Positions 4,940-22,943 of a stretch of DNA of 64,000 nucleotides are shown here, one piece after another. The stretch is from contig NZ_CP024808.1 in NCBI RefSeq assembly GCF_002787055.1, positions 1,080,328-1,144,327 on the forward strand, written 5' to 3'. Each line of letters begins with the position of its first letter. Within the stretch, counting starts at the first letter, position 1. Origin of the DNA: Candidatus Nitrosotenuis aquarius (GTDB lineage Archaea; Thermoproteota; Nitrososphaeria; Nitrososphaerales; Nitrosopumilaceae). Both the position numbers and the translations under genes were made by a program. The notes below the pieces were generated by a model. The model was not told where the DNA came from, did no database searches, and saw only the letters and a list, made by a program, of their open reading frames with translations.

Positions 4940-6277
4940 TCATGGAATTCCTATTGTCAAAAGCTTTGAGTTGTTAAAATTATTTTTGTTAAGAATATTT
5001 CTTCCGTCAAAGATAAGTAATGGTTTGTTTGCCTTTGAAAACGAAGATTCATCTAGTTTTGAATATTGTTTATGATCAGTAGATATGAAAATCAAATCGG
5101 CCTTGTGAATAGTCTTTCCAAGATCAGATGACAGTTCCACATTAGACGGTAGATCATCATCTTGGAGAATATATGGATCATGTACAGATACTCTTAGCTT
5201 CTTTTTTCTGAACTCATTAATCACTGCATATGATGGAGATAGTCTAGAATCAGTTACATCTCCCCTAAATCCCAATCCTAACACAGCAATTTTGAGATTT
5301 TTGGTTTTTTTGTTATTTTTTAAGAGTCGAATTGCATCTTTCACACATTGTATTGGCATATCATCATTAATTTTTCTTGCAAATTCTGTTATCTTCATAT
5401 TTTTACCTAGTTTTGCAGCCTGTTCAATTACAAATCTTGGATATACTGGTATACAGAGACCACCAACTCCGGTTCCAGGATAATGTAAATGACAGTATGG
5501 TTGGGAGTTTGCTGCTTTTCTTGCTTCCCAATAGTTTATTCCAACATCTTTACAGAAATCCACTAGCTCATTTGCAAGAGCAATATTGACATCACGGTAA
5601 ACTCCTTCAAACAATTTTTCTGCTTCTGCTGTTGCAAGTGATGACATTGTCAAGACTCCTTTTTTTGAAATTAAACTTAGCAAATTTTGGGCAAGATCAG
5701 TGCTTTTTTTGCCAAGCCCAGATACAATCGCAGGATAATTTTCTTCAATGTCCTGTAAAGCTCTTCCCTCATAGATTCTCTCAGGATTGTAGATCAGACA
5801 GAAGTCTTTCTCTCCCTTTAGTTTACTTTTTTCCAATATCGGCAGGATTATTTTTTCTGTAGTGCCTGGAGGTAAAGATGGACAAATTATCACCGTATCA
5901 TTTTTCTTCAGTCCCCGCGTAATGTTTTGTGCAACGGTAATAATGATACTAAGATCTATCTTGTTGTTTTTTAGTGCGACTGGTACCGCTACGATCTTTA
6001 TTTGAGAATCTTTTGATGCTTGAATTCCATCAGATGTTAAGGAAAGTTTGTTGTTTTTTAATGCAGTTGAAAAAATCTCTGATATGAATGGCTCTTTTTT
6101 GTGAGATTCTCCATTTCTTATTTCAGTAAGTAGTTTAGTAGATACATCAACGCCAATTACGTTAGCTCCCGCCCTTAGCCAAGCAGCTGCTAACGGCCCA
6201 CCAACATTTCCCAGTCCATACACCGCAATTTTTTTGTTTGTTATTATTGATGCAGGTTTTTTTTTAGTCAAAATCAC
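4940..6277 (-). CDS. UDP-sugar 6-dehydrogenase (UDP-glucose/ManNAc dehydrogenase family)
   Basis: Four-electron oxidation of a UDP-hexose to the UDP-uronic acid. The 445-residue protein has the N-terminal Rossmann motif GLGNVG (21-26) with an acidic residue at the end of strand 2 (GVD, 42-44), the NPER segment (164-167), the central dimerisation helix and the catalytic cysteine C275 in VGGLCIPVYP. The C-terminal UDP-binding domain begins near 330 (KIAVLGLGFRGD). The position after CIPV is Tyr where many homologues have Asp. It follows the epimerase at 6291-7184 on the same strand with a 13-base gap, so the pair likely acts on one sugar nucleotide. It is a distant paralogue of the gene at 17913-19292. 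Confidence 0.85.
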   Translation of the reverse strand: MILTKKKPASIITNKKIAVYGLGNVGGPLAAAWLRAGANVIGVDVSTKLLTEIRNGESHKKEPFISEIFSTALKNNKLSLTSDGIQASKDSQIKIVAVPVALKNNKIDLSIIITVAQNITRGLKKNDTVIICPSLPPGTTEKIILPILEKSKLKGEKDFCLIYNPERIYEGRALQDIEENYPAIVSGLGKKSTDLAQNLLSLISKKGVLTMSSLATAEAEKLFEGVYRDVNIALANELVDFCKDVGINYWEARKAANSQPYCHLHYPGTGVGGLCIPVYPRFVIEQAAKLGKNMKITEFARKINDDMPIQCVKDAIRLLKNNKKTKNLKIAVLGLGFRGDVTDSRLSPSYAVINEFRKKKLRVSVHDPYILQDDDLPSNVELSSDLGKTIHKADLIFISTDHKQYSKLDESSFSKANKPLLIFDGRNILNKNNFNNSKLLTIGIP

Positions 6278-7256: not shown

Positions 7257-8348
7257 ATGGCAAAAAAATTGATTCCACTTGCTGTACCAGATGTAGGCGA
7301 GGAAGAACTTGAAGAAATTCGCAAAGTTTTGGCAACTGGATTTCTGACTGAGGGTGTAACAACCCAAGAATTTGAAAAGAAAGTCGCTGAATATGTTGGA
7401 GTCAAACATGCAATAGCAATGACATCATGTACTACGGCCCTACATACGGTTTTGGAATGTCTAAATATCAAGGGTCAAGAGGTAATAGTTCCTGATTATA
7501 CATACCCTGCTACTGCTGAAGCAGTCATTTTGGCTGGCGGAAAACCTGTTTTGGTAGATGTTGATTCAGAAAGCATGAACATGACAACTGAGACACTAGA
7601 GCAGGCCTATGATAGTTCCATGACGGTCTTCATTCCGGTATCTTGGGCAGGAGTTCCACTAGAATCAAAATTATATAAGAAATCAAAAGAGCTTGGCCTC
7701 AAATGTTTGGAAGATGCTGCTTGTAGTTTAGGTGCTAAGATTGGTTCAGAATTTGTTGGAAAGATTGCGGATTATTCCTGTTTTAGTTTTCATCCAAGAA
7801 AGGTAATCACAACAGGAGAAGGCGGAATGATAACTACTGATGATGATTCAATGGCCGAAAAATTTCATTCATACAAACATTTTGGCGCAAAAGGAACTAC
7901 GTTTGAAACTATTGGGACAAATTACAAGCTTTCAAACATTTTAAGTGCGCTTGGAATAGTGCAGATGAGAAAAATTGAAAAGATAATACAGGTAAGAATA
8001 GAAAAAGCCAAAATCTACAATGAGTTATTGTCAAAGATTAATGGAATAAGACCAGCATATGTAGGAAGTGACACAAGACAGACATTTCAGACATATGCAT
8101 GTTATGTTGAAAAAGACGACTACAGAGATAAGATAAGAAAATCACTTGCAGATGAGAACATTCAGAGTCAAATTGGTACATACGCATTACATCTAGAACC
8201 AGCATATAGGAATTACAAGAGAATAGGTAAATTGAAAAACTCGGAGCTATTGTTTAGAAATGCTTTGTCTCTTCCACTACATAGGAGCTTGGAATTGGAA
8301 GATCAGAATCGCATATGCAAGATCATCAGTCAAACACTTAGTGAATGA
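7257..8348 (+). CDS. DegT/DnrJ/EryC1/StrS sugar aminotransferase
   Basis: PLP-dependent transamination of a keto-sugar nucleotide to an amino-sugar nucleotide. The 363-residue protein matches the family in length. The Schiff-base lysine is K182 in FHPRKVITTGEGG, the cofactor-pyridine aspartate is in EDAACSLG (152-159), and the N-terminus carries the PLVDEEE-like region (PDVGEEELEEI). It is divergent from the epimerase/dehydrogenase pair, which could supply its substrate. The next aminotransferase follows on the same strand after 40 bases. The sugar product (for example a 3-amino or 4-amino sugar) is not readable. Confidence 0.85.
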   Translation: MAKKLIPLAVPDVGEEELEEIRKVLATGFLTEGVTTQEFEKKVAEYVGVKHAIAMTSCTTALHTVLECLNIKGQEVIVPDYTYPATAEAVILAGGKPVLVDVDSESMNMTTETLEQAYDSSMTVFIPVSWAGVPLESKLYKKSKELGLKCLEDAACSLGAKIGSEFVGKIADYSCFSFHPRKVITTGEGGMITTDDDSMAEKFHSYKHFGAKGTTFETIGTNYKLSNILSALGIVQMRKIEKIIQVRIEKAKIYNELLSKINGIRPAYVGSDTRQTFQTYACYVEKDDYRDKIRKSLADENIQSQIGTYALHLEPAYRNYKRIGKLKNSELLFRNALSLPLHRSLELEDQNRICKIISQTLSE

Positions 8349-9579: not shown

Positions 9580-10266
9580 ATGGACCATAACAGAGAAACA
9601 ATAGATAGATACAATAGACGTTTGATAAAATTTGGATATAATCCAAAAACATTAGGATGGATCAAAGGTAGACAGGGAATCAGATTCTCCGCCTTGATTT
9701 CTATTGGTAACATTAACAATTCCAGTGTTTTAGATATAGGATGCGGATTTGGAGATCTTTATGGATTTTTAAAGTACAAAAAACTTAGATTCAGTTATTT
9801 GGGTTTAGAACTGAATCCAAATCTCATAAAATATGGAACAGAGCAATATCCAAAAGCGGATTTTAGAGTTTTTGATATTGTAAAAGATGACATAGATAAA
9901 AAATACGATTGGGTAATTATCTCTGGATTATTTAATTTTAAAAGAAAATCACCATATCAGTTTATAGAATTAGTATTAAGAAAAGCATTCAATTGTTGTA
10001 GAAGAGGAGTTGCTACAGATTTTATGACAACCTATGTTGATTTTAAAAATAAAGATGCCAATTATGTAAATCCAGAGAAAATAATGAAAGTTTGTAAGCA
10101 AATTACTACAAGGATAACACTGAGACAAGATTACATGCCATATGAATTTTGCATTTATCTTTACAAGAACAATATAAAAACTCAAAATGGAGTGTATAGT
10201 GAACATTACTCATCATTAGATCCAGAAATTAGAACAAACAAGTGGCTCAATATGAAATCTGGATAA
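9580..10266 (+). CDS. Class I SAM-dependent methyltransferase
   Basis: A 228-residue protein with a clear motif I, VLDIGCGFGDLYGFL (near residues 47-61), an acidic end of strand 2 (GLELNP) and a motif IV-like stretch (YDWVIISGLFNF). It begins 27 bases after the aminotransferase and ends just before the deacetylase-like gene, so the three likely form one transcript. The substrate may be a sugar or a small metabolite made by the neighbours; nothing in the sequence narrows this. A GGAGG at 9552-9556 lies too far from the ATG to act as a normal ribosome-binding site. Confidence 0.75.
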   Translation: MDHNRETIDRYNRRLIKFGYNPKTLGWIKGRQGIRFSALISIGNINNSSVLDIGCGFGDLYGFLKYKKLRFSYLGLELNPNLIKYGTEQYPKADFRVFDIVKDDIDKKYDWVIISGLFNFKRKSPYQFIELVLRKAFNCCRRGVATDFMTTYVDFKNKDANYVNPEKIMKVCKQITTRITLRQDYMPYEFCIYLYKNNIKTQNGVYSEHYSSLDPEIRTNKWLNMKSG

Positions 10267-10289
10267 ATATTTACAATTCTTTATGGCGT

Positions 10290-11186
10290 ATGTGTTATAA
10301 ATTGAAAAATGAAATTCTTTTGGTTTTATCAGCAGATGTTTATTTTGACCAAGCGAACTCTCATTTCAAAGATGAGCATTCATTAGAAAATCTTGAACTT
10401 TTGCCCGATATTGCCAATACCGTCAGTCATGTACTAAATTCACACTGCAAACCAAAGATATGCTGGTTGGTGTCAAATAATGACATAATATTAAAAAATT
10501 TTATACAAAAAAAGGACGATGTTATGTTAAATAATGACGAAATTGGATTGCATTGTCTAATATCAAAAATGTTTGATATAAGCTCAAAATCCAAATTAGA
10601 AATTGAAAGATACATTGAGAATGCAGTAAGAATGATGAATAATTATGGACTGATACCACTTTCGGCTAGAATGGCAGGTTGTTCAATGAACAATAATTTG
10701 TTAGCGGCACTTCAGAAATATGGAATAAAAGTGGATTCTTCAGCATTACCAAAGCGTAAAAGAGATGAAACAATCAGTTTTGATTGGTCAGTAACAGAGT
10801 CCACACCATATTTTCCATCTGTTACAGATTATCGAATTACAGATTCAGATAAAACAAAATGTCATTCCATATTAGAAGTTCCATTGACTACAATTTCTAC
10901 TAAAGCACCTTATGACAAAGAATCAATCTTCAGATATCTAGATTTATGCTTTAAACCAAAAGTCATTGCAGATGAAATTACTAACATTGTAAAAGAAAAA
11001 GAAATTATTGTAACAATTATTCACCCTATGCAATTATTAAAGCAGGAAAATAAAAATGAGCTATTTGGAACCGGTATTGACGATTTTAAAACTAATTTAA
11101 TTCATCTTCGAGATAGTTGTGAAAAATTTGGTAGAAAAATAAAATGTGTTAGTTTCATGGATTTGTATAAATTATTTACAAATTAA
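10290..11186 (+). CDS. Polysaccharide deacetylase (NodB)-like protein
   Basis: About 298 residues from the ATG at 10290; a longer frame opens at 10242 and overlaps the methyltransferase by 25 bases. The order of elements resembles the NodB/CE4 deacetylase fold: an early acidic strand (LLVLSADVYFD), EIGLHCLI where canonical enzymes have an H-containing metal site, a middle arginine-rich segment (ARMAGCSMNN) in the place of motif 3, and a late His in TIIHPMQLL. Metal ligands are only partly conserved, so it may be a divergent amidohydrolase of the same fold. Context suggests N-deacetylation of an amino sugar. Assignment is moderate. Confidence 0.5.
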   Translation: MCYKLKNEILLVLSADVYFDQANSHFKDEHSLENLELLPDIANTVSHVLNSHCKPKICWLVSNNDIILKNFIQKKDDVMLNNDEIGLHCLISKMFDISSKSKLEIERYIENAVRMMNNYGLIPLSARMAGCSMNNNLLAALQKYGIKVDSSALPKRKRDETISFDWSVTESTPYFPSVTDYRITDSDKTKCHSILEVPLTTISTKAPYDKESIFRYLDLCFKPKVIADEITNIVKEKEIIVTIIHPMQLLKQENKNELFGTGIDDFKTNLIHLRDSCEKFGRKIKCVSFMDLYKLFTN

Positions 11187-11229: not shown

Positions 11230-12420
11230 TTGCAAAAAAAGCTCTTGATTTTGGGTGGAGGGGTATCACACTTGGCAATAATCAATATTGCAAACAACAT
11301 GGGCTTACATACTGTTGTAATGGATAAGAATCCAGCTGCAAAAGGACTCAAAATAGCTAAAAAAGCAATTAATCTTGATGGAGGAAACAAAGAACAAGTT
11401 CTAAGCGTTGCCAAAGCTGAAAATATAGATGGGATTTTATCTACAGGTGATTATTCTGTGATTCCAGCTGCATATGCAGCAGAGAAAATTAACCTAGTTT
11501 CTTTAGGAAGTAAAACTGCAAATTTGGTAACAAACAAAGGCGAATTATTTTCTCGTTTTGCAAAACATGGTGTACCAATACCGCCAAGGAAAGTAGTAAC
11601 TAATTTTAAAGACGCATTAGGAGTTGTAAATAAAATAGGCTTACCTGTAATACTAAAACCTGAGTACAGTTATGGTGCAAGTCGTGGGGTGATAAGAGTC
11701 AACTCCATAGAAGAGTTTGAAAAGAAATTTAAATTCACACAGGGGTTTTGCCTAAAGAAAGGGATCATAATAGAGAAGTTTATCGATGGTTTAGAGCACA
11801 CAATTGAAAGTATTACCATAAACGGAAAAACTTCAGTATTAGCAATTTCAGATAAAATTCGAACAAGTAATCCATATTGTGTGGCCACAAGTTTGGATTA
11901 TCCATCAAAACAAAAAAAGGACATAGTAAGAAAATTGAAACTAGCTGCAAAAAAAGCAATAGCTGCATCAGGCATACGAAATGGAGCATCGCATATAGAA
12001 GCAATTTCTTTAAGCGGACAAGTATATGTTATCGATTTTGGCGGCAGAGGAGGTGCAGGTGGTTTCATACCTTCTGTCGTGGTTCCAAGGATAAACGGTG
12101 TGAACATGATGGAAGCTATGATCAAAATCGCTTTAGGAGAGAAAGTTGGATCATTGAAACCACAATTCTGGAATAGTGTGATTTATCGATTTTTTGTTGC
12201 TGAACCAGGAATTGTCAAAAGTATCAATGGAATTAGAAAAGCACAAAAAATTTCATGGGTAGTAGATCTAAAAATTCACGTCAAGAAGGGAGATCGTATT
12301 GAAGTACTGTCAAATCAGTTACTACGTCCAGGTTATTTTGTAGTGGTAGGTAAGAATAATCAAGAAGCGGAAAAGAGAGCAAAATTAATCCAAGAACTAG
12401 TGAAAATCAAAACAAAATGA
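11230..12420 (+). CDS. ATP-grasp family carboxylate-amine ligase
   Basis: A 396-residue protein starting with TTG. The N-terminal pre-ATP-grasp domain has LLILGGGVSHLA (residues 5-16). The ATP-binding part carries LPVILKPEYSYGASRGV (about 138-154), a glutamate-containing EKFIDG segment, HIEAIS and the metal-site loop VIDFGGRGGAGG near 273. In that loop Asp and Gly replace the usual Glu and Asn. Members ligate a carboxylate, through an acyl phosphate, to an amine or thiol (PurK/CarB/LysX-like). As the last gene of the aminotransferase-methyltransferase-deacetylase series it could attach an amino acid or other carboxylate to an amino sugar. The function is inferred. Confidence 0.7.
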   Translation: MQKKLLILGGGVSHLAIINIANNMGLHTVVMDKNPAAKGLKIAKKAINLDGGNKEQVLSVAKAENIDGILSTGDYSVIPAAYAAEKINLVSLGSKTANLVTNKGELFSRFAKHGVPIPPRKVVTNFKDALGVVNKIGLPVILKPEYSYGASRGVIRVNSIEEFEKKFKFTQGFCLKKGIIIEKFIDGLEHTIESITINGKTSVLAISDKIRTSNPYCVATSLDYPSKQKKDIVRKLKLAAKKAIAASGIRNGASHIEAISLSGQVYVIDFGGRGGAGGFIPSVVVPRINGVNMMEAMIKIALGEKVGSLKPQFWNSVIYRFFVAEPGIVKSINGIRKAQKISWVVDLKIHVKKGDRIEVLSNQLLRPGYFVVVGKNNQEAEKRAKLIQELVKIKTK

Positions 12421-12430
12421 AGATTCACGA

Positions 12431-13645
12431 TTATAGAATTGTCTTTGGACTAATTTGTTTTGTGATGAATAACTGATAGTATATTTCCAATGCTAAAATC
12501 GATACAATTTTACTCAAATATCTGATATCACCATCACTATCAACTCGGTCGAACGCGTTTAGTATCCAACCATAATTGATGATATTATTTCCATACACAT
12601 AGCTCTTCTTATCAAGAAGGATACGCTCAGCAATTTGTTTCCCATTTCTATTCCAATCCAGCAATAGATCTGGGCTGAATCCTTTTTTCTCATCGATATG
12701 TTCTACATTAAGTCGATTAGTTATTTTCCTCAACGTTAGCTTGCCTTTGTTGGAAACAGCATTGTATTTTTGGTCTAATCGTAAATGAAGTCCAAAATTA
12801 ACTACATTACTATCTAAAAATGGAGATATGCCAAGCAGGCCATAATGTTGTAGAATTTTTTGTCCAGTTGGAATAAAGTCATAGATTAGCTTTCCATTAA
12901 AATCTGCCAAAAATACTTGTTGAATTGGTTTTAATGAATTTCTAAAATAAGGTTTAAGATAATTATAGATCACATTCCAGTCAAACTTGATTTTTTTTCC
13001 AAAAATATTTTTTTGATCAGGAACCCAATCTCGATTATGACACTCCAGATAATGGATTACTTTAGTTTTCCAATCATCAGTTAATTTTGATAGATTAAGG
13101 AATTTATGATATCTGAATGTATAACCGGCAAAAACTTCGTCTGCACCATCACCATTTACAAGAATGTTGCTATATTTTTTAGCCTCTTTTGCAACATAGT
13201 GTTGATATGTGTTCCATCTTGGCTTTTTTGCAATTGATATCAATTCAGGCATATTTTTGAATATAGAATCCACAGTCACAATTTTAAATGTAGAATTAAA
13301 TTTTTTAGCTATTAATCTTGCTTGTTTTGATTCATCATAAGCATCTTTGAATACCACACATATTGAGATTAATTTTCTGGATGGAAAAATATGGCGTAAT
13401 AATCCTAAAGTTAGACTTGAATCAATTCCACTACTAAGAGATAGGGCAAGCGGTTCATCGTTGTCAGGTATTGATTTCTTAATTGCTTTTTTTAACAATA
13501 GTTCAGTTTTATGACCTCCAGGATCAGAATTTGTATTTAATAAATCAGATGATGGGATTTTTTTATGAATGTTAATTTCTTCCGGATTATATCGTAATGT
13601 CAAATAATTGTGGATTAATTTAGATGTAATTTTATAATTCAACAT
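12431..13645 (-). CDS. Asparagine-synthetase-like amidotransferase lacking the glutaminase domain (copy 1)
   Basis: A 404-residue protein corresponding to the C-terminal synthetase domain of AsnB. The PP-loop ATP pyrophosphatase motif is SSGIDSS (71-77), with Ser in place of the first Gly of the common SGGxDS, and NGDGADEVFAGY lies at 164-175. There is no N-terminal Ntn glutaminase domain and no Met-Cys start. AsnB-type proteins in glycan loci, such as WbpS of Pseudomonas, amidate uronic acids, so activation of a UDP-uronate carboxylate by adenylation is plausible. Ammonia would then come free or from another subunit. It shares length and layout with the gene at 16712-17926, its closest relative here. 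Confidence 0.75.
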   Translation of the reverse strand: MLNYKITSKLIHNYLTLRYNPEEINIHKKIPSSDLLNTNSDPGGHKTELLLKKAIKKSIPDNDEPLALSLSSGIDSSLTLGLLRHIFPSRKLISICVVFKDAYDESKQARLIAKKFNSTFKIVTVDSIFKNMPELISIAKKPRWNTYQHYVAKEAKKYSNILVNGDGADEVFAGYTFRYHKFLNLSKLTDDWKTKVIHYLECHNRDWVPDQKNIFGKKIKFDWNVIYNYLKPYFRNSLKPIQQVFLADFNGKLIYDFIPTGQKILQHYGLLGISPFLDSNVVNFGLHLRLDQKYNAVSNKGKLTLRKITNRLNVEHIDEKKGFSPDLLLDWNRNGKQIAERILLDKKSYVYGNNIINYGWILNAFDRVDSDGDIRYLSKIVSILALEIYYQLFITKQISPKTIL

Positions 13646-13693
13646 GATAAAATAATTTTGAAGATTAATAACCTTTAATTTTTATAAAGATGA

Positions 13694-14935
13694 TTGTTGG
13701 GCAAGACAAAAGTTTTAGCAATAGGTGACACTGCCGACAATATCTTTACTCTCAAAAAGTTTGTAAAAAATGTAGATATTCATTTGATTAATTTTCCCCG
13801 AAAACAAAATGCGTTATTAACATATTCAGAAGAGGGAGTAGAGTTTTTTGATTCATTATTAATCTCTAAACAAGTTAAAATGATCAAAGAAATATGCACT
13901 AAATTTGATTTATGCTTGGCCATGTCTTGGGCAGGAGCAAGAGTAGCATATCTGGCAGGATTAAATTACATAATGTATTTTGTTGGTGGTGATATAGCAA
14001 CTCCTCCCTTTCTAAAAAAGTCTAGAGATCCTTTTACAAACACCATAGTTTATGATTTGAATTTTATCGAGCGCTCATTCTATAAAAGAGTCTTCGATAC
14101 CGCATTAACATGTATTGGAGGACAAATCGAATACAATTATTTGATAAAGTATAGGAAAGACGCAATAAGATTGGACAGGGTAATTGTTGATACAACACTA
14201 TTTAATCACGAGATAAAACCTGTAAATCTTAAAAAAGAGAAATTCACATTTTTGTCGGCCCAGCGTTTTGGTCTTGCAAAAGGATTCGACATAATTTTGG
14301 AGGCATTAAGACTATGCAAGACAGACTTTAAGGTCTTACAAGTAAAATGGTTTATTGAGAATTCCGAGGAAGAGAAAAGAATCAATAGAGAATTAATAGA
14401 TAAATGCCCAAAACAAGTTGAGTTCATTCCACTAATAAAGCGCAAAGAATTAGGTAGTTATTTCACGTTCGCTGATGCAATACTAGGTCAGATGCGTATC
14501 GGTGCACAAGGAGCGATAGAGCGAGATGCTGCATTTTGTAAAAAACCAGTAATTTGTTTTACCGATCAAAATAAACCCATGATAATAGATGGTAAGGAAG
14601 TTGTGCCACCGTTTTTACCCAAAACACAAGATTCTCATGATCTTGCAAATCTAATTGATTCCATAGTACAATCAAAAGAATTTAGAGATAAATTAGTAGA
14701 AGAACAATATTCTTATATCAAAAAACTTTCGGATCCTGATGAGGTTGTAAAAGAATGGGAAAGAATTTTTGAGGCCATGACTAGAAAAAATAAAACAATA
14801 AAACGAAAGTCAAAAACAATAATATTTGAAAATTTGTTAGCAGTGTTATCGGAAAGACTGATTTATTTACGAAAAATGAGAATGAGGAATATTAAATCAT
14901 GGGGAAAAGAAGAATATGAAAGGCTTACTAAATGA
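13694..14935 (+). CDS. Glycosyltransferase, GT-B fold (GT4-like)
   Basis: A 413-residue protein starting with TTG, divergent from the asparagine-synthetase-like gene. The C-terminal half shows the GT-B nucleotide-sugar-binding layout: LSAQRFGLAKGFDIILEAL (about residues 188-206), a VEFIPLIKRKELGSYFTFAD stretch and IGAQGAIERDAAFCKKPV, where the conserved acidic residue before the last helix is E/D. The C-terminus (about 375-413) is highly basic, which could attach it to the membrane surface. It ends exactly one base before the convergent membrane-protein gene. Donor and acceptor are unknown. Confidence 0.7.
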   Translation: MLGKTKVLAIGDTADNIFTLKKFVKNVDIHLINFPRKQNALLTYSEEGVEFFDSLLISKQVKMIKEICTKFDLCLAMSWAGARVAYLAGLNYIMYFVGGDIATPPFLKKSRDPFTNTIVYDLNFIERSFYKRVFDTALTCIGGQIEYNYLIKYRKDAIRLDRVIVDTTLFNHEIKPVNLKKEKFTFLSAQRFGLAKGFDIILEALRLCKTDFKVLQVKWFIENSEEEKRINRELIDKCPKQVEFIPLIKRKELGSYFTFADAILGQMRIGAQGAIERDAAFCKKPVICFTDQNKPMIIDGKEVVPPFLPKTQDSHDLANLIDSIVQSKEFRDKLVEEQYSYIKKLSDPDEVVKEWERIFEAMTRKNKTIKRKSKTIIFENLLAVLSERLIYLRKMRMRNIKSWGKEEYERLTK

Positions 14936-15430
14936 TCATTTTACTTTGTCGGTCTTTTCTCTGTGACTTCCTACATATCCACCTTTTACCAATAAATTAA
15001 TTTTTTCTTCAATGGATTTGATTATAGAAAGCTCTTCATCAGTGATTTTTTCATTTTTTGAGATTTTTACAAGTAATTGTGCTATGATCCCATATAACGG
15101 GAAGACAACTTCTCGTGTCCATCCTGGCTGTAGCTTGTAAAAATATGGATATGATTCTACATTAATGTCAGCTTCAGCAGAATATGCTGAGCTTCGTTTG
15201 TAATGCACATATCCTACGAAGACAAGAAATGGTATACCAAGCCCAGCAATCACACTCACATATATGAAAAAGCTTGGAAATACAGTTTTTAATGCAGGGA
15301 TATTTTCTATTGCCAAATAATATGTTGTAACCATAGTATTTACTGCCGCGAAGATGAAAGCAAAATACGTAGTCCAGCCTTGTCTGAAATAAAACCAAGC
15401 ACGAAATCCTAATTTTCTTCTAGCAATCAA
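14936..15430 (-). CDS. Conserved membrane protein of unknown function
   Basis: A 164-residue protein with two hydrophobic segments (about residues 19-43 and 52-74), a polar middle (SSAYSAEADINVESYPYFYKLQPGW) and a charged helical C-terminus (about 120-164). The N-terminus is basic (RRKLGFRAWFYFRQGW). I do not recognise a family. It sits inside the glycan island but shows no enzyme motif. Its stop codon abuts that of the plus-strand glycosyltransferase in the palindrome TGATCA. Confidence 0.6.
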   Translation of the reverse strand: MIARRKLGFRAWFYFRQGWTTYFAFIFAAVNTMVTTYYLAIENIPALKTVFPSFFIYVSVIAGLGIPFLVFVGYVHYKRSSAYSAEADINVESYPYFYKLQPGWTREVVFPLYGIIAQLLVKISKNEKITDEELSIIKSIEEKINLLVKGGYVGSHREKTDKVK

Positions 15431-15654
15431 CAGATAGATCTAAAATAGTATAAAGGTAAATGTGATTGTGAAGACAGGTTAATTAATTAATCAAAATTAT
15501 GTTTGTTTTTGATGTATTTGTTTCATTCCTAGTTTTTTGAAAGTAATTTTCACGTTTTATTACTAATTACAAATGAATTCATGTGATAAAATCATAGGAG
15601 AAATTCATAACCATAACACGTTTAATATAATCAGTTGAATATTAAAATTCAAAA
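15431..15654. other. Non-coding gap of 224 bases
   Basis: A very AT-rich stretch between two divergent genes. It holds the TATA-like box for the downstream glycosyltransferase and a short TTAATTAATTAA run at 15480-15491. No convincing ORF, tRNA or structured RNA was seen. Confidence 0.5.
15621..15629 (+). promoter_or_regulatory. TATA-like box for the glycosyltransferase at 15655
   Basis: TTTAATATA is centred 30 bases before the TTG start at 15655, consistent with a leaderless transcript. Confidence 0.45.
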
Positions 15655-16707
15655 TTGAGATTGCTTATTGGTGGAGCTAGTAGTAAGTTTTTTCATCTTA
15701 AGGAATTTAATGATTCTTTAGAGAGACTTGGTGTAGAAACAAAACTAGTTTTAGATTCAGAAATTTACGATGGTTTTCCAAGCAGAAATCTCAATAACTG
15801 GTTTCAGACTAGAAGAAAATTTAAAAAACTAATTGGTGATTTTAAACCCGAGTTAATTTTTGTAGATAGACAAAGGCATTTTTCTGTTGCTGCTGTTGAG
15901 TCAAAAATACCTACACTAGTACACCTACGGGGAGATTTTTGGAGTGAAATACAATGGGCAAGAGAAACAACATACAAGTCATTTGTAAAAGGTATTGTTC
16001 TTTCCGAATGGGAAAAAATGGGAAAGAAATGCTTTGAGTCATCAAGTGCAATTTTGCCAATATGTGAGTACCTTGCAGACATTACCAAAAAACATTATCC
16101 TTCAAAGAATATACATGTTTTACGACAGGGAATAACACCATCAAGGTGGTTTCAAACAGACAAGCTCAAGCTCAAACATCCCTGTGTCGGATTCTTACAA
16201 AGTGCAATTATTTGGGGAAAGGCAAAAGAGATGCTAATTTTACCCCGGATATTAAAATCAATGCCAAACATTATGTTTTATTGGGTAGGTGATGGCCCTT
16301 ACAGAGAACAAATTCTAAAACCTCTAAGAAAATTTGAAAATTTCAAGTGGTTGGGCCCAATGAAATATCCAGACGAAGTAAGAGACTATCTTTCAGAGAT
16401 AGATATCTATGGACTAATGAGTGGGATTGATATGTCCCCGTTAACATTACAGGAAGCTCAGCTTATGAAAAAACCAGTCATAGCAACAGATGTGGGAGGA
16501 ATACCAGAAGTGATGGTAGACGGTAAGACTGGATTTTTAGTAGAAAAGGAAAACCCTACAGACTGGATTGATCGAATTAACCTCATACTTGAAGATAACG
16601 ACAAAGCAAAGAAAATTGGAATGGAAGGAAGAGGGTTCATCGAATCCAACTTTAATATGGATAAAATAGCTAAAGATTTTTTATCAATTGCAAATAATTA
16701 TATTTAA
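15655..16707 (+). CDS. Glycosyltransferase family 4
   Basis: A 350-residue GT-B retaining glycosyltransferase starting with TTG. The C-terminal domain has GFLQSAIIWGKAKEMLILPRI, WVGDGPYREQI (about 212-222), and the GT4 EX7E-like region in LTLQEAQLMKKPVIATDVGGIPEVMVDGKTGFLV, where the two acidic residues contact the donor sugar. N-terminal GGASSKFFHL is the start of the acceptor domain. It is transcribed alone, followed by a convergent asparagine-synthetase-like gene four bases away. Donor sugar unknown. Confidence 0.85.
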   Translation: MRLLIGGASSKFFHLKEFNDSLERLGVETKLVLDSEIYDGFPSRNLNNWFQTRRKFKKLIGDFKPELIFVDRQRHFSVAAVESKIPTLVHLRGDFWSEIQWARETTYKSFVKGIVLSEWEKMGKKCFESSSAILPICEYLADITKKHYPSKNIHVLRQGITPSRWFQTDKLKLKHPCVGFLQSAIIWGKAKEMLILPRILKSMPNIMFYWVGDGPYREQILKPLRKFENFKWLGPMKYPDEVRDYLSEIDIYGLMSGIDMSPLTLQEAQLMKKPVIATDVGGIPEVMVDGKTGFLVEKENPTDWIDRINLILEDNDKAKKIGMEGRGFIESNFNMDKIAKDFLSIANNYI

Positions 16708-16711
16708 AATT

Positions 16712-17926
16712 TTAAACAAGTCTTGTTGAATGTTTCAATTCTTTAGTGATAAACAATTTATACCAGATTTCAAATGCTAACAGTCCATATAATTTGTTAA
16801 CAGTTCTTGCATCAGTATCTTTTATTTTCAATTTTTTTCTTATCCATTCTCTATTGATCCAGCCATCTTGTATAATTCTAGCATCATAAAGATAATAGTC
16901 GCAGATTTCTTTACCATATGACTTCCATAGATTTACAGTATCTATAGAGAATCCTTGTTTTCCTTGTGAAACAAATCTTTCCAAGTTTTCTTTCTTAATT
17001 ATTTGTCGTAATATGATCTTGCCAGTTTTGCTCTGTTTATCGTATTTCATATTTGATGGAATATGGGTAGCATATGAGATCATTTCTTCTGACAGCAATG
17101 GTGTTAATGTTTTAATCCCAAAATGTTTGTTAATTGCTGTGTTTACTACTGAGAAATTATGTCTTAATTTACCGTTAAAATCAGCTAGGAATACTTGATT
17201 TAGTGGATTTAATGGATTGCCAAAGTATGGTTCTATGACATTATAGATTTCTTTCCATGAGAAGTTCGAGTTTTTACCAAAAACTCTTGGCTGATCCGTA
17301 ACCCAATCACGTTCATGACATTTTAAATAGGATAGAATTTTGTTCTGTTTAGTTGTATTTTTTTTAATCAATGAGAGGAATTTTTTGTAACGGAATGTGT
17401 AGCCTCCAAATAGTTCATCTCCACCATCTCCAGACACTATGAATTTGGAAATAGAGCTTGCTTTTTTTGCCACATGATACCAATGTAAATCCCATATGGG
17501 AAGTTTTACTATACTTATTGCTGCTGGCAAGTTTTTAAGATAATTCGATACGAAAATAATTTGATTATCAACGCCTAATCTTTCTGCAAGTTTAGAGGAT
17601 TGTTTTGTCTCATCAAAACTTTCAGCAAATTTTACAGACAGGGTCTTTATTTTCACATTTGGTACAGCCCTGATTAAAGAGCTTAAAACTAATGTTGAAT
17701 CTATTCCACCACTCAACGCCAATGCGATTTTATTTCTAGCAGAATTTTCGATGTTATCTTTTACATAACTAATGATTATTTTTTCTACCTGATCAGCAGA
17801 TATGTTCTGCTCTTTTTCAACGAAATCTTTCCAAGATAACTTCGGAATTTTTGATTTGATTTCAGTCGAGTATCGTAATGTCAGAATATGTTTGATTAAT
17901 TTCGGGTTTACTCTAGATCTTACCAC
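16712..17926 (-). CDS. Asparagine-synthetase-like amidotransferase lacking the glutaminase domain (copy 2)
   Basis: A 404-residue paralogue of the protein at 12431-13645, exactly the same length. It has the canonical PP-loop SGGIDS (72-77) and SGDGGDELFGGYTFRY (165-180). Both copies begin with a similar KLIxxxLTLRY segment in place of a glutaminase domain. Its start overlaps the end of the nucleotide-sugar dehydrogenase gene by 14 bases, so the two are translationally linked. The dehydrogenase makes a uronic acid and this enzyme could convert that carboxylate into an amide. The ammonia source is not encoded in the protein. That reaction is inference; the domain loss is directly visible. Confidence 0.75.
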   Translation of the reverse strand: MVRSRVNPKLIKHILTLRYSTEIKSKIPKLSWKDFVEKEQNISADQVEKIIISYVKDNIENSARNKIALALSGGIDSTLVLSSLIRAVPNVKIKTLSVKFAESFDETKQSSKLAERLGVDNQIIFVSNYLKNLPAAISIVKLPIWDLHWYHVAKKASSISKFIVSGDGGDELFGGYTFRYKKFLSLIKKNTTKQNKILSYLKCHERDWVTDQPRVFGKNSNFSWKEIYNVIEPYFGNPLNPLNQVFLADFNGKLRHNFSVVNTAINKHFGIKTLTPLLSEEMISYATHIPSNMKYDKQSKTGKIILRQIIKKENLERFVSQGKQGFSIDTVNLWKSYGKEICDYYLYDARIIQDGWINREWIRKKLKIKDTDARTVNKLYGLLAFEIWYKLFITKELKHSTRLV

Positions 17927-19292
17927 GGCCTAATCCTCTAAATATCAGATTTGCTTTTTTTGCTGCATGTCTATCCACTACACCCCTAGAGTCAACAAGT
18001 ATAGGAGTTCTCATTCTTGTAGCTAAAAATATTGGTTCCAAATCATGAAATTCTTTATGTGCAGTCACTATAACTATAGCATCAGTATTTTTTAATGCAT
18101 CAACAAAATTACTTTCTGTGTGTATTCCATATACGTTTGTAGATTTGTAATACGGATCATAGATTTTTACTTTGGCCTCACCCGCAAGCAATTTTTCTAC
18201 GATATGTTTCGCAGGGCTTAGCTGGATATCTTTTACATCCGGTTTGTACGATATGCCAAGGATTAGTATTTCTGAACCTTTGATGCTCTTATTGGCCTCT
18301 AAAAATCCATCATTTAGTAGGCCTATTACATGATCAGGCATCGATTCGTTAGCAATACGACCAGCTTTAACAATATTTAGATTTCCATTAACACGTTTTG
18401 CAAGATTAAGCATTTGGTAAGAATTAACTGGAAGACATGGCCCACCTACTCCCGCTCCAGGATAATGAACTTGAAAATTGTATTTTGTTTTTGCAGCTTC
18501 GAGTACTTTCATAATATCGACGCCTATTTTTTCAAACAATATCGCGAGCTCATTTACAAAAGCAATGTTAATGTCACGAAAAACATTCGTGGTAAGCTTT
18601 ACTGCATTAGCAGTCTTACAATCAGGCATCGGAATTAGATCAACAGTGAACACATGCCTATAGATCTTTGTAATGATGTTGGCAATTCTATCATCAATTG
18701 CACCTACAAGTCTTGGCAATCTTTCAAAATCATTAAGAATTTGTCCTGGGTTTGCAGTTTCAGGACATACTCCTATTCCAAAGTTCTTTCCTGCTTTCAG
18801 TCTGGTTCCATCCCCTTCTATTATAGAGATCAGTTCATCTTCCACAAATCCCGGTTCTATTGTACTTTCTACAATAACAAGTGATCCGGGAGTAAGCAGT
18901 TCATGTAGTTGTTTGCCTACAGATTTCAATGCAGAATAATTAGGAATGTTGTTTTCATCCATTGGGGTTGGAAGTGATAATAGTATCACGTCAGATTTTG
19001 GAACACCTTCCTCGATCTTCGTAGTTGCAGAAAAATTTTTTTCTTTCATTACATTTTCAAATATTATGTCATAACCAGGCTCATCTTTAAGGGGAAATTC
19101 ACCCGAGTTAATGGAGGCAACTAGGTCTGAATTGATATCCACTCCAATTGTTGAGAGGCCAGAATTTGCAAAGGATAGTGCAGTAGGCAATCCAATTCTC
19201 CCCACACCAATAACACAAACCTTGAGATTGTTGCTCTGAATCGCTTGAATAAGCTCCTGTGAACTCATCTCCATTATTGAATTGGTCATCAA
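17913..19292 (-). CDS. Nucleotide-sugar dehydrogenase (UDP-ManNAc/UDP-glucose dehydrogenase family)
   Basis: A 459-residue protein with Rossmann motif GVGRIG (29-34), acidic GVD (50-52), the ESTIEPG loop (142-148), VCPETANPG (175-183) and catalytic cysteine C286 in GVGGPCLPVN. The C-terminal UDP-binding domain starts around 345 (ILILGISYKPDVKD). ATG codons at 19292 and 19289 are both possible starts, followed by a short hydrophilic N-terminal extension (SMEMSS-like) before the fold. It oxidises a UDP-sugar to the uronate using two NAD+. It is the first gene of a two-gene minus-strand operon with the asparagine-synthetase-like gene and divergent from the epimerase at 19366. Confidence 0.85.
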   Translation of the reverse strand: MMTNSIMEMSSQELIQAIQSNNLKVCVIGVGRIGLPTALSFANSGLSTIGVDINSDLVASINSGEFPLKDEPGYDIIFENVMKEKNFSATTKIEEGVPKSDVILLSLPTPMDENNIPNYSALKSVGKQLHELLTPGSLVIVESTIEPGFVEDELISIIEGDGTRLKAGKNFGIGVCPETANPGQILNDFERLPRLVGAIDDRIANIITKIYRHVFTVDLIPMPDCKTANAVKLTTNVFRDINIAFVNELAILFEKIGVDIMKVLEAAKTKYNFQVHYPGAGVGGPCLPVNSYQMLNLAKRVNGNLNIVKAGRIANESMPDHVIGLLNDGFLEANKSIKGSEILILGISYKPDVKDIQLSPAKHIVEKLLAGEAKVKIYDPYYKSTNVYGIHTESNFVDALKNTDAIVIVTAHKEFHDLEPIFLATRMRTPILVDSRGVVDRHAAKKANLIFRGLGRGKI

Positions 19293-19365: not shown

Positions 19366-20289
19366 ATGACAAATTTATCACGTCATGTGAAATTTGCTGT
19401 AACCGGTGGGGCTGGTTTTGTTGGAAGCTATTTGGTAAAAAGATTAATCAAAGAAAATCACGATGTGATTGTAATAGATAACCTTTATCGAGGTAAGCTA
19501 GAAAATCTAAAAGAAGTTTTTGATAAAATACAATTTCAAAAAATCGATATCAGAGATTTTGATTCTATGAGAAATATCATAAAAAATACAGACGGTGTGT
19601 TTCATGAGGCAGCACTTACAGACGTACAAGAGTCATTTACAAAACAAGACGAATATGTAGATGTAAACGTCAAAGGTACTGAAAATGTATTCAAAATAGC
19701 AAGGGAATTCGGGACCAAGATAATTTATGCTAGCAGCTCTAGCGTTTATGGTAATCCAGAAAAAACTCCAATCGCCGAAGATAGTAAACGTACCCCGATC
19801 AATCCGTATGGTAACACGAAACTAGAGGACGAATTTTTGGCCGAAAAATATGTTGAAAATGGTGTTTCAATAATTGGCCTCAGATACTTTAACATCTATG
19901 GAAAAGGCCAGACTGGATCTTATGCAGGAGTAATAACCAAATTCATCAACAATCTAAAAGAAAAAAGGCAGCCAGTGATTTTTGGTAACGGTGAACAAAA
20001 AAGGGATTTTATTTTTGTAGAAGACGTTGCAAGAGCAAACATTGCAGCCATGAAGAGTAATGTCAAAAACGGATTTTTCAATGTAGGAACCGGTATGGTC
20101 ACTTCCATAAAACAGCTGGCAGATCAGATGATTGAGCTTTCTGGATTAGAACTAGAACCAAAATATGAGAAACCATTAGTTGGAGATGTATTCACTAGTC
20201 AAGCCGACACAACTCTAACAAAAAAACTACTCAATTGGGAGTATCAAACCGAACTAAGCGATGGCTTGAAAATATTTTTCTCATTGTGA
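19366..20289 (+). CDS. UDP-glucose 4-epimerase-like SDR
   Basis: A 307-residue extended SDR with GGAGFVG (14-20), acidic strand-2 end (VIDN, 36-39), the YASSSSVYG segment (121-129) supplying the catalytic serine, and Y148/K152 (NPYGNTK). LRYFNIYGKGQ and GNGEQKRDFIFVEDV are the substrate-domain signatures of GalE/WbpP-like epimerases. It is divergent from the UDP-sugar dehydrogenase, with 73 bases between, and likely feeds or drains the same nucleotide-sugar pool. Its stop is directly adjacent to that of the convergent glycosyltransferase. UDP-GlcNAc or UDP-glucuronate are equally possible substrates. Confidence 0.85.
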   Translation: MTNLSRHVKFAVTGGAGFVGSYLVKRLIKENHDVIVIDNLYRGKLENLKEVFDKIQFQKIDIRDFDSMRNIIKNTDGVFHEAALTDVQESFTKQDEYVDVNVKGTENVFKIAREFGTKIIYASSSSVYGNPEKTPIAEDSKRTPINPYGNTKLEDEFLAEKYVENGVSIIGLRYFNIYGKGQTGSYAGVITKFINNLKEKRQPVIFGNGEQKRDFIFVEDVARANIAAMKSNVKNGFFNVGTGMVTSIKQLADQMIELSGLELEPKYEKPLVGDVFTSQADTTLTKKLLNWEYQTELSDGLKIFFSL

Positions 20290-21234
20290 TTATTTTAAGA
20301 GTTTTTTATAAAATTCAATATATTTTGGAAGCCAGATAGTCCATGTCATGTTTTTGTTTACAAAGTCAAATGCAGCATCAGTCAGTTTTTTTATTTGCTC
20401 TGAATCGTCTAATAACGAGTTGATTTCAGACAATAATGTTTGAGGTTCTTCTGGTGGAACTAGAATGCCTGTTTTTTTGTTAGTGACTAGTTCTGGTATT
20501 CCACCAACATTTGTTGCAATGACAGGGATTTTCAGATAAAATGCCTCTTTGATTACAGTAGGTAAACTTTCCATTCTTGACGGTACAACCAATACTCTTG
20601 AGGATTTGAGTGTGGACATTGCCTTTTGCCAAGGAAAGTCTATACAATAAACGACATTGCCTTTGATTTGTGATTCTATTCTGCGAAGAATATCAATTCC
20701 TTTCTCGTAACTATCTCTGCCAGCATAGATAACTTGGTTGTCTTTTTTTTCTGTGTCTGGAATATCATCTAGTTTTTCCGTATCAATTGGGCTTGGTAGA
20801 TACTCGAAATCCAGTCCTAGTTTTTCTTTGTAGGCTTTTTGTGTGATTTTTGAGTCAGTTGTTAGCATGTTTGCCCATCTGAGAGCGCTTTCTTCGGTGG
20901 TTTTGGCAACTTTTCCCAGAGCACTTGAATGTAGAATGTTTACCTGATCACTGAAAACACCATGAATTGAGAGTACTCTTTTTTTTGCACATGCTGTCCG
21001 CATCGCAAAAGCAGACGGCACATTGAACGCATGCACTATATCATAACTACCCTTAAAGAAACTCGAGATGGAGCTGGTAACTACAAAGCTTGGATTTTTA
21101 AAATTTTTAATTGGAATTTTTGGAGGATCAAGAAAATCAACATGAAATCCATGTTTTCGTAGTTGGTCTGCAAGCATAGCTGCATGGCCACCTATACCAC
21201 CAGAATACCTTGGAGAAATGAAAAGTAGTTTCAA
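20290..21234 (-). CDS. Glycosyltransferase family 4
   Basis: A 314-residue GT-B enzyme, short for the family. The N-terminal domain opens with LLFISPRYSGGIGGHAAMLADQL (first 25 residues; the glycine-rich loop binds the donor phosphates). The C-terminal domain has VIYAGRDSYEKGIDILRRI, VLVVPSRMESLPTVIKEAFYLKIPVIATNVGGIPELV with the conserved Glu residues, and TGILVPPEEP. It is the last glycan gene of the island; base composition rises immediately upstream. Sugar donor is unknown. Confidence 0.85.
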   Translation of the reverse strand: MKLLFISPRYSGGIGGHAAMLADQLRKHGFHVDFLDPPKIPIKNFKNPSFVVTSSISSFFKGSYDIVHAFNVPSAFAMRTACAKKRVLSIHGVFSDQVNILHSSALGKVAKTTEESALRWANMLTTDSKITQKAYKEKLGLDFEYLPSPIDTEKLDDIPDTEKKDNQVIYAGRDSYEKGIDILRRIESQIKGNVVYCIDFPWQKAMSTLKSSRVLVVPSRMESLPTVIKEAFYLKIPVIATNVGGIPELVTNKKTGILVPPEEPQTLLSEINSLLDDSEQIKKLTDAAFDFVNKNMTWTIWLPKYIEFYKKLLK

Positions 21235-21278: not shown

Positions 21279-22943
21279 TTACACTAATGCTTGAGATGCT
21301 GCATGCATCATCTGGCTTTTTGCACAACCAGCTGCGAGCTCGTCTCCTTTTCCTCTTCTCATTAGGCCTCTATACAAGCCGTCTTCTAGTTTGACACCTT
21401 CTCTTTGCTCCCATTCTTCCACTGTAATGGAATATTTCTTTTGGATTCTGTCCCTGTACCATTCTGGAATGACATTGAATGCGCAGAATGGAATGATTCT
21501 AAGATCTGGAGTCAAATAGTGTATATCACATCTTTGTAGTCTTTCTAGGTCTTCATTGTACTTGTCTTGAAAGTGCATCATGCCCAAGAATAATCCCTTG
21601 ACGTGCCAAGAGCCTACTGCATCAAATGATCTCTTCATTAGAATATTGCCAAACATCTTTGCCAAGTCTAGGCCTGCTGGTTGCTTCTTTTTGTCAACGA
21701 AACTAGAAAGCTTTCTTACAACCTCTAGCATGGTAAAGTACTTGTTTTTACCAGAACGGATTTCTTCTGCTTTGTCTTCGAATAATTCCAACATTCCTTG
21801 AATGTCTGCAAATCTTGGCAGTGGGACGAATTTCTTTGTCTCTGCGTCTTCGAAGACATAGGTGCCTGCACCACATGCAAAATGAATTGATAATTCGTAT
21901 TTTGGTTTGCTAGAGAATGCCTCAATTACGTTAGTCAACGGCATGCAGCTTGGAACTGGGAACCAGTCATCAACTGTAACCTCGCCATTTGTCTGCTCTT
22001 CGATTCTTTGGATGCAATCAGGAATGGTGATTCTGTATTTTTCACGTTCTGCTTTACCCATTCTACCAGTTAGTGATACTGGTTGGAAGTTTACTGCGTG
22101 AACTACGTCCATGTTCTTTTGGGCATATCGAATGATACCGCCTAGTTCATGGTCGTTGATTGATTTGATAACTGTCGGAACAAAAACTACTGTTGTGCCT
22201 GTCTTTCTGCAGCTATCCAGAGCATATGGGATCTCCCAGTGGTTCTTTGGATTTGTTCTTGCAGTGACACCGTCAAAGCTCAGGTACAGGTTATTGCAGC
22301 CTGCCAGTCTTACCTCTCTTGCCGCTTCTGGGTCCATTGCATGTCTGATGCCGTTTGTATTCATCTGGACATGGTCAACACCTTCTTGTTTCATTATTTT
22401 GATAATATCGGTAATGTCATCTCGCAGCATTGGCTCACCGCCAGTGATTTGGATAGAGTTGCCCGGAATTGGTCGCTCTGCCTTTAGGGTCTTCATCATT
22501 GCACGAACTTGGTCGTGTGACGGCTCGTACATGTATGCTCCTTCAAGGCCCTTCTTTACGTAAAAGAAGCAGTACCAGCATGTCAGGTCACACCTGTTGG
22601 TTACGATCATGTTTGCAAGACCGCTGTGTGATAGGTGATTTGAACATAAACCGCAGTTATTCGGGCAAGAACATTTCTCGATCATTACGTTTGGTGCATG
22701 TGCGCCCTTGCCGTCAGCCCAATAGGTGCTGAATTTTTTGTACATTTCATAGGAACCAAAGTACAATTCTTCACATTCGCCATGTGTTGGGCATGTTTTG
22801 CTCATAAAGACGCGTCCGTCTCGCTCAAAGACCTCTGCATCCAGAATCATGTTACAGTCAGGGCAGATGCTCTGGGTGAATCTGATTGTGGATTTCTTTC
22901 CAAGCGTCTTTGTCGAGTTTCTTGAGAGCTGAATTAGCGACAT
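21279..22943 (-). CDS. tes: Radical SAM protein, tetraether lipid synthase (Tes)-like
   Basis: A 554-residue radical SAM enzyme. The SAM-cluster motif is C118-x3-C122-x2-C125 (NRCDLTCWYC), with ITGGEP near 165 for SAM binding. Additional cysteines precede it: C27/C30 and C51 in a zinc-ribbon-like N-terminus, and C91, C93, C97 and C100 in EKCSCPNNCGLCSNH. That layout matches the MJ0619/MA_1486 family, shown to join two archaeol chains by sp3 carbon-carbon coupling into tetraether lipids, and archaea of this phylum make tetraether lipids (crenarchaeol). Other radical SAM methylases share the core, so exact activity is inference. It is divergent from a TrmB regulator across a 115-base gap. Confidence 0.7.
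   Translation of the reverse strand: MSLIQLSRNSTKTLGKKSTIRFTQSICPDCNMILDAEVFERDGRVFMSKTCPTHGECEELYFGSYEMYKKFSTYWADGKGAHAPNVMIEKCSCPNNCGLCSNHLSHSGLANMIVTNRCDLTCWYCFFYVKKGLEGAYMYEPSHDQVRAMMKTLKAERPIPGNSIQITGGEPMLRDDITDIIKIMKQEGVDHVQMNTNGIRHAMDPEAAREVRLAGCNNLYLSFDGVTARTNPKNHWEIPYALDSCRKTGTTVVFVPTVIKSINDHELGGIIRYAQKNMDVVHAVNFQPVSLTGRMGKAEREKYRITIPDCIQRIEEQTNGEVTVDDWFPVPSCMPLTNVIEAFSSKPKYELSIHFACGAGTYVFEDAETKKFVPLPRFADIQGMLELFEDKAEEIRSGKNKYFTMLEVVRKLSSFVDKKKQPAGLDLAKMFGNILMKRSFDAVGSWHVKGLFLGMMHFQDKYNEDLERLQRCDIHYLTPDLRIIPFCAFNVIPEWYRDRIQKKYSITVEEWEQREGVKLEDGLYRGLMRRGKGDELAAGCAKSQMMHAASQALV

Follow-up and report, generated by a model that had tools for sequence, protein, structure and literature searches.

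Glutaminase-free asparagine-synthetase-like proteins as predicted uronate amide ligases in a glycan locus of Candidatus Nitrosotenuis aquarius

We analysed a 64,000-nucleotide stretch of the ammonia-oxidising archaeon Candidatus Nitrosotenuis aquarius (contig NZ_CP024808.1, positions 1,080,328 to 1,144,327; hereafter the window, in whose numbering all coordinates are given), which carries two paralogous asparagine-synthetase-like genes in a glycan locus. Copy 2 is predicted to be a uronate amide ligase that acts right after a nucleoside diphosphate (NDP)-sugar 6-dehydrogenase, takes ammonia as its nitrogen donor, and serves a surface glycan, a reading to which we give a probability of roughly two-thirds; for copy 1 we propose the same function with lower confidence. 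The elements concerned are as follows:

12431-13645, minus strand: copy 1, a predicted paralogous asparagine-synthase-like amide ligase (ATG start, 404 residues; PF00733, E 2e-31).
16712-17926, minus strand: copy 2, a glutaminase-less asparagine-synthase-like amide ligase, predicted to amidate uronic acid (GTG start, 404 residues; PF00733, E 1.6e-35).
17870-17902, minus strand: the KLIKHILTLRY segment of copy 2, an interdomain-linker relic (hhalign against full-length homologues).
17913-19292, minus strand: NDP-sugar 6-dehydrogenase of 459 residues, upstream of copy 2 (TIGR03026, E 1.2e-109).

The two copies share 38% identity and match PF00733 with 110 and 124 bits against a gathering score of 21, with the SGGxDS loop included in the match. 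A Pfam search of both returned no glutaminase domain or glutamine amidotransferase (GATase) match; besides Asn_synthase, related families of the pyrophosphatase fold scored weakly and nothing else matched. The pyrophosphatase loop reads LSSGIDS in copy 1 and LSGGIDS in copy 2, followed downstream by NGDGADEVFAGY and SGDGGDELFGGY, respectively, and then by KYNAVSNKGKLTLR and KYDKQSKTGKIILR, so that the SGGxDS, GDGxDE, and KxxxGKxxLR synthetase motifs are complete in both. Pfam and motif alignment thus agree with a reading made earlier from the sequence alone, which described two 404-residue proteins that keep the adenosine triphosphate (ATP) pyrophosphatase loop and lack an N-terminal nucleophile (Ntn) glutaminase; the identical length is itself a coincidence, since relatives vary from ~399 to 430 residues. 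The family to which both belong (~400 residues) has a specific middle region in which RDWVPDQ and QVxLADFNGK are conserved, and LExRxPFLD, present in glutaminase-bearing homologues, is missing from 32/32 family rows checked. AlphaFold2 models are confident for both (mean predicted local distance difference test score 94.1 for copy 2 and 94.0 for copy 1), and that of copy 2 best matched hydroxyamidotransferase TsnB9, carbapenam synthetase (CarA), beta-lactam synthetase, human ASNS, and Escherichia coli AsnB in Foldseek, with template modelling scores of 0.46-0.58 by query length; phmmer with copy 1 alone found no match among PDB sequences, where a profile search did. In a tree built with full-length and short archaeal homologues, several of them on long branches, the family stands apart from these, and copy 1 and five relatives form their own clade (support 100/100).

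Both copies have an N-terminal segment in common (SKLIHNYLTLRY in copy 1 and PKLIKHILTLRY in copy 2), whose KLIxxxLTLRY pattern had been taken for a replacement of the glutaminase domain. When 28 family members were aligned profile to profile (hhalign, E 2e-37) with four archaeal homologues that bear a glutaminase domain, the segment found another counterpart: VNPKLIKHILTLRY aligns onto VSKTALHNYLSFRY of a 605-residue homologue in genome G006, the stretch joining the glutaminase and synthetase domains, and the corresponding linker of the full-length homologue reads ALHNYLSFRY. The replacement idea is therefore abandoned, and the segment is a leftover of the normal interdomain linker, not a new domain. 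On this alignment, the most likely origin of the family is an ancestor with both domains, from which the linker helix was retained.

The dehydrogenase beside copy 2 is most like UDP-N-acetylhexosamine dehydrogenases, and among solved chains an archaeal UDP-ManNAcA dehydrogenase (4r16) comes closest to it. The 3' end of its gene and the start of copy 2 share 14 nt, as had been noted from the sequence and as the coordinates bear out. Among relatives, an orthologous dehydrogenase lies directly upstream and on the same strand in 36/57 copy-2-like (non-copy-1) family genes; because 29 of these 36 pairs overlap by 4-32 nt, and 10 by exactly 14 nt (the window's own pair counted), the 14-nt overlap exceeds chance. 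Where the dehydrogenase is not adjacent, a divergent short-chain dehydrogenase/reductase (SDR) gene and the neighbours encoding tetraether lipid synthase (Tes) and a GT4 glycosyltransferase are often still there. Across 151 Nitrosopumilaceae genomes, the partner dehydrogenase and the family occur together in 36, the family alone in 19, the dehydrogenase alone in 1 (G106, where the dehydrogenase match runs up to the edge of a contig), and neither in 95. Any NDP-sugar dehydrogenase at all is found in 34/35 genomes with the family vs. 14/66 without it (101 genomes at least 90% complete; Fisher p 1.5e-14, the co-occurrence p-values ignoring shared ancestry). For copy 2, a coupling from dehydrogenase to amide is well supported by conserved operon structure and genome co-occurrence, in line with the earlier suggestion that the dehydrogenase's uronic acid becomes a uronamide; support is weaker for copy 1, which shares the region but has no dehydrogenase next to it.

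The family is accessory and almost confined to ammonia-oxidising archaea. Full-length relatives (E < 1e-50) are present in 55 of the 151 Nitrosopumilaceae genomes, and a second family (f3, Nitrososphaeraceae going by named loci) has them in many of its genomes; outside Nitrososphaeria, a phylum sample of 398 genomes yielded a full-length member in one, and a conserved-peptide scan of 84,980 species, biased to close relatives, found the family almost exclusively in Nitrososphaeria. Members in a Nitrospina metagenome-assembled genome (L129) and a gammaproteobacterial one (L144) are probably misbinned, the latter because its gene order is thaumarchaeal (Tes, GT4, SDR, dehydrogenase, and asparagine-synthase-like gene), and a 796-residue frame in G023 is a normal member plus an upstream open frame, its Arg/Pro-rich first half resembling out-of-frame translation and not a domain. 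The closed genomes G046, G059, and G092, which we take to be Nitrosopumilus maritimus, N. piranensis, and N. adriaticus, have neither the family nor the partner dehydrogenase; NDP-sugar 6-dehydrogenase (PF03721) is absent altogether from these and other closed Nitrosopumilus-size genomes, and uronic acids made by the 6-dehydrogenase route are therefore not expected in such marine strains. In G600, from another class, the contig order is dehydrogenase, Gfo/Idh oxidoreductase, further genes, STT3/AglB oligosaccharyltransferase, predicted amide ligase, GT2, further genes, and SDR. The family gene there directly follows the STT3/AglB gene (L215:7367-10859), outside the ammonia oxidisers' class, and this adjacency makes a glycan destination likelier than general metabolism. 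That the two copies make asparagine from free aspartate, as their top Pfam and NCBIfam match (asparagine synthase) would have it, is on this evidence highly improbable: the score of 88.6 bits is far under the asparagine synthase cut-off of 267, a separate short PF00733 protein is widespread, the family is missing from complete ammonia-oxidiser genomes such as G046, and the genes share a glycan locus with a dehydrogenase gene. The family-specific middle motifs, the missing LExRxPFLD, and the accessory distribution disfavour aspartate as substrate, and the dehydrogenase pairing, the co-occurrence, and the STT3/AglB neighbour favour a uronic acid in its place.

Loss of the glutaminase half extends beyond the two copies. 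All 4 PF00733 proteins of the genome (G000) are without a glutaminase domain, as are those found in ~97/101 sampled relatives, and PF00733 frames of glutaminase-bearing size occur, among the matches listed for the family sample (the G023 long frame excluded), only in G006, G025, G073, and G128; with a loss this wide, absence of the domain alone cannot point to the glycan locus. The two further proteins of the genome, of types that both look widespread in Nitrosopumilaceae, have 249 residues (C1:1685.6k; L003:1465-2214, beside an adenylosuccinate-lyase-like gene) and 317 residues (C1:358k; L004:976-1929, with a C-terminal CxxC...CxxC zinc ribbon). Relatives of the 249-residue protein in other Thermoproteota (~490 residues; L226, L227, and L229) keep an Ntn-like region at the N-terminus, beginning MGA or LGA and thus lacking the catalytic Cys, as if glutaminase activity had been lost before the domain. 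Ntn-type GATase (PF13537) matches in the genome are GlmS-like and PurF-like only. Nine proteins match class I GATases, two of which (180 and 227 residues) are without an obvious pathway; the others we read, from size, context, or sequence, as TrpG, CarA, GuaA, PyrG, HisH, PdxT, and PurQ. None of the nine lies near copy 1 or copy 2, and across about 60 loci no GATase gene recurs as a neighbour. A search for separate glutaminase partners thus found none near the genes but leaves the two orphans, and these, together with the existence of split amidases such as MurT/GatD (PMC6085368), speak for a separate subunit that would supply ammonia for uronate amidation in trans. We consider this improbable, given the loci free of GATases and given that the lineage's other PF00733 proteins are also without a glutaminase domain. 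Since no glutaminase is fused or neighbouring, free ammonia or ammonium is the likely donor, as a reasonable inference.

Reported archaeal glycans bear on the proposed amide. G218 (2,527,938 bp), presumably Nitrososphaera viennensis, contains the family and one dehydrogenase, elsewhere in the genome. Four residues of the N. viennensis N-glycan are assigned Hex(NAc)2(CONH2) (PMC12153357). A check for a carbamoyltransferase origin of this CONH2 found no Carbam_trans_N (PF02543) match in G218, and the gene content and carboxamides together are no more than suggestive of a uronamide role. The genome taken to be that of N. piranensis has neither the family nor the partner dehydrogenase. No N-glycan was detected in that species (PMC12153357). 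N. maritimus is glycosylated (PMC11153153) though G046 is without both genes, which means that N-glycans as such do not require the family. Besides an orphan class I GATase, which could act as a glutaminase in trans, several observations weigh against uronate amidation with free ammonia after the dehydrogenase. The viennensis residue, C11H17N3O6 (287.11), equals Hex(NAc)2 plus CONH and lies CH2O above di-N-acetyl-hexuronamide (257.10), so that this glycan is not a clean match for a C6 uronamide; in G218, G205, and G219 the family gene is not beside a dehydrogenase; 21 non-copy-1 family genes (some of these genes at contig ends) and all copy-1 genes are without an adjoining dehydrogenase; and G113 carries the family with no NDP-sugar dehydrogenase detected.

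In the proposed pathway, the dehydrogenase would turn a UDP-N-acetylhexosamine into the uronic acid by oxidation at C6, presumably leaving it at the UDP-sugar stage; copy 2 would adenylate the uronate carboxylate with release of pyrophosphate, and ammonia would attack the acyl-adenylate to give a uronamide that then enters a surface glycan, probably the S-layer N-glycan. Copy 1 may perform the same reaction on a second, probably di-amino, uronic acid from the locus's other dehydrogenase. In place of ammonia, an amino acid, a polyamine or some other amine might be joined to the carboxylate, much like the threonine amide of a methanococcal glycan sugar, and the fold class holds two enzymes that use an internal amine, beta-lactam synthetase and carbapenam synthetase. 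The pocket also differs, with LExRxPFLD missing and QVxLADFNGK and RDWVPDQ present, the viennensis residue exceeds a plain uronamide in mass, and an ATP-grasp gene resembling amino-acid ligases adjoins copy 1. We nevertheless regard this alternative as unlikely, as the closest dehydrogenase-partnered precedents yield primary amides (PMC6025236, PMC7468200) and the viennensis group was assigned as CONH2 from mass spectrometry and nuclear magnetic resonance (PMC12153357).

Further genes surround the two copies in the glycan locus:

4940-6277, minus strand: second NDP-sugar dehydrogenase, 445 residues, a possible uronate source for copy 1 (TIGR03026, E 4.8e-105).
7257-8348, plus strand: DegT-type sugar aminotransferase near copy 1 (PF01041, E 1.7e-90).
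13694-14935, plus strand: GT4-like glycosyltransferase between the two copies (PF00534, E 6e-9).
15655-16707, plus strand: GT4 glycosyltransferase convergent with copy 2 (PF00534/PF13692; cluster 5, 37 loci).
19366-20289, plus strand: SDR-family NDP-sugar epimerase/dehydratase, divergent from the pair of dehydrogenase and predicted amide ligase (PF01370, E 1.3e-60; position kept in most relatives).
20290-21234, minus strand: GT4 glycosyltransferase of the conserved locus (PF00534, E 2.7e-23; cluster 3, 41 loci).

Copy-1 orthologues lie in the same wider locus, and in several genomes a second-type NDP-sugar dehydrogenase, a DegT aminotransferase, an SDR, and a hexapeptide acyltransferase are nearby, a gene set that would suit a di-N-acetylated uronic acid. 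The ATP-grasp protein (11230-12420), whose stop and the end of copy 1 are ~10 nt apart, has a C-terminal LAL_C2 domain (L-amino acid ligase) and might couple a sugar with an amino acid. The Tes gene (21279-22943; NF045702, 697 bits) stands beside the glycan locus in most relatives. Two open reading frames complete the neighbourhood, one of 164 residues with no Pfam match (14936-15430), conserved in 21 relatives' loci, and one of 314 residues with no Pfam or NCBIfam match (10242-11186).

The family provides gene candidates for the amide groups of the nitrogen-rich N-glycan reported in an ammonia-oxidising archaeon. Should ammonia be the donor, these cells, which live on very dilute ammonium, would spend it directly, together with ATP, to neutralise carboxylates at their surface, a point relevant to ammonium handling by the S-layer. 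That the glutaminase half has been lost across the lineage is an evolutionary observation in its own right and easily checked. The broader proposition, that ammonia-oxidising archaea have lineage-specific, glutaminase-free, ammonia-using uronate ligases that build nitrogen-rich surface glycans from ammonium and have dropped the glutaminase half from nearly all their asparagine-synthetase-type enzymes, has in our judgement about as much for it as against it.

Comparison with known systems places the two copies apart from each of their nearest counterparts. With E. coli AsnB and human ASNS they have in common the fold of the ATP-pyrophosphatase synthetase domain; they differ in the missing Ntn glutaminase domain and LExRxPFLD, and in an Asp in place of Glu-364, which is catalytically required in human ASNS (PMC6748925), and they score 80-89 bits against a cut-off of 267 for glutamine-hydrolysing asparagine synthetase (TIGR01536). 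The short PF00733 proteins of the same genome (249 and 317 residues) are glutaminase-free too, but form separate clades, are without the family-specific middle region, and occur also in genomes lacking the 400-residue family. WbpS and WbqG, which belong to the eps_aminotran_1 family (PMC7468200) and are known from Pseudomonas aeruginosa O6, E. coli O121, H. pullorum, and P. gingivalis (TIGR03108), differ in bearing a glutaminase part: of the 628 positions of that model the window proteins match from position 208 on, with no upstream glutaminase part and with 79.4 bits for copy 2 and 48.5 bits for copy 1 against a cut-off of 816.9, and their substrate-pocket motifs differ from those of glutaminase-bearing homologues. 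In common are the PF00733-type synthetase domain, the association with a UDP-HexNAc 6-dehydrogenase, which copy 2 parallels in its genomic link to an NDP-sugar 6-dehydrogenase, and the conversion of uronic acid to uronamide, predicted for the window proteins. P. gingivalis WbpS makes the glucuronamide from a 2,3-diamino sugar, and a wbpS mutant shows the uronate at +1 Da (PMC7468200); in H. pullorum, WbpO and WbpS make HexNAcAN, a product found in the N-glycan (PMC6025236). By analogy, WbpO and WbpS may serve as the working model for the dehydrogenase and copy 2.

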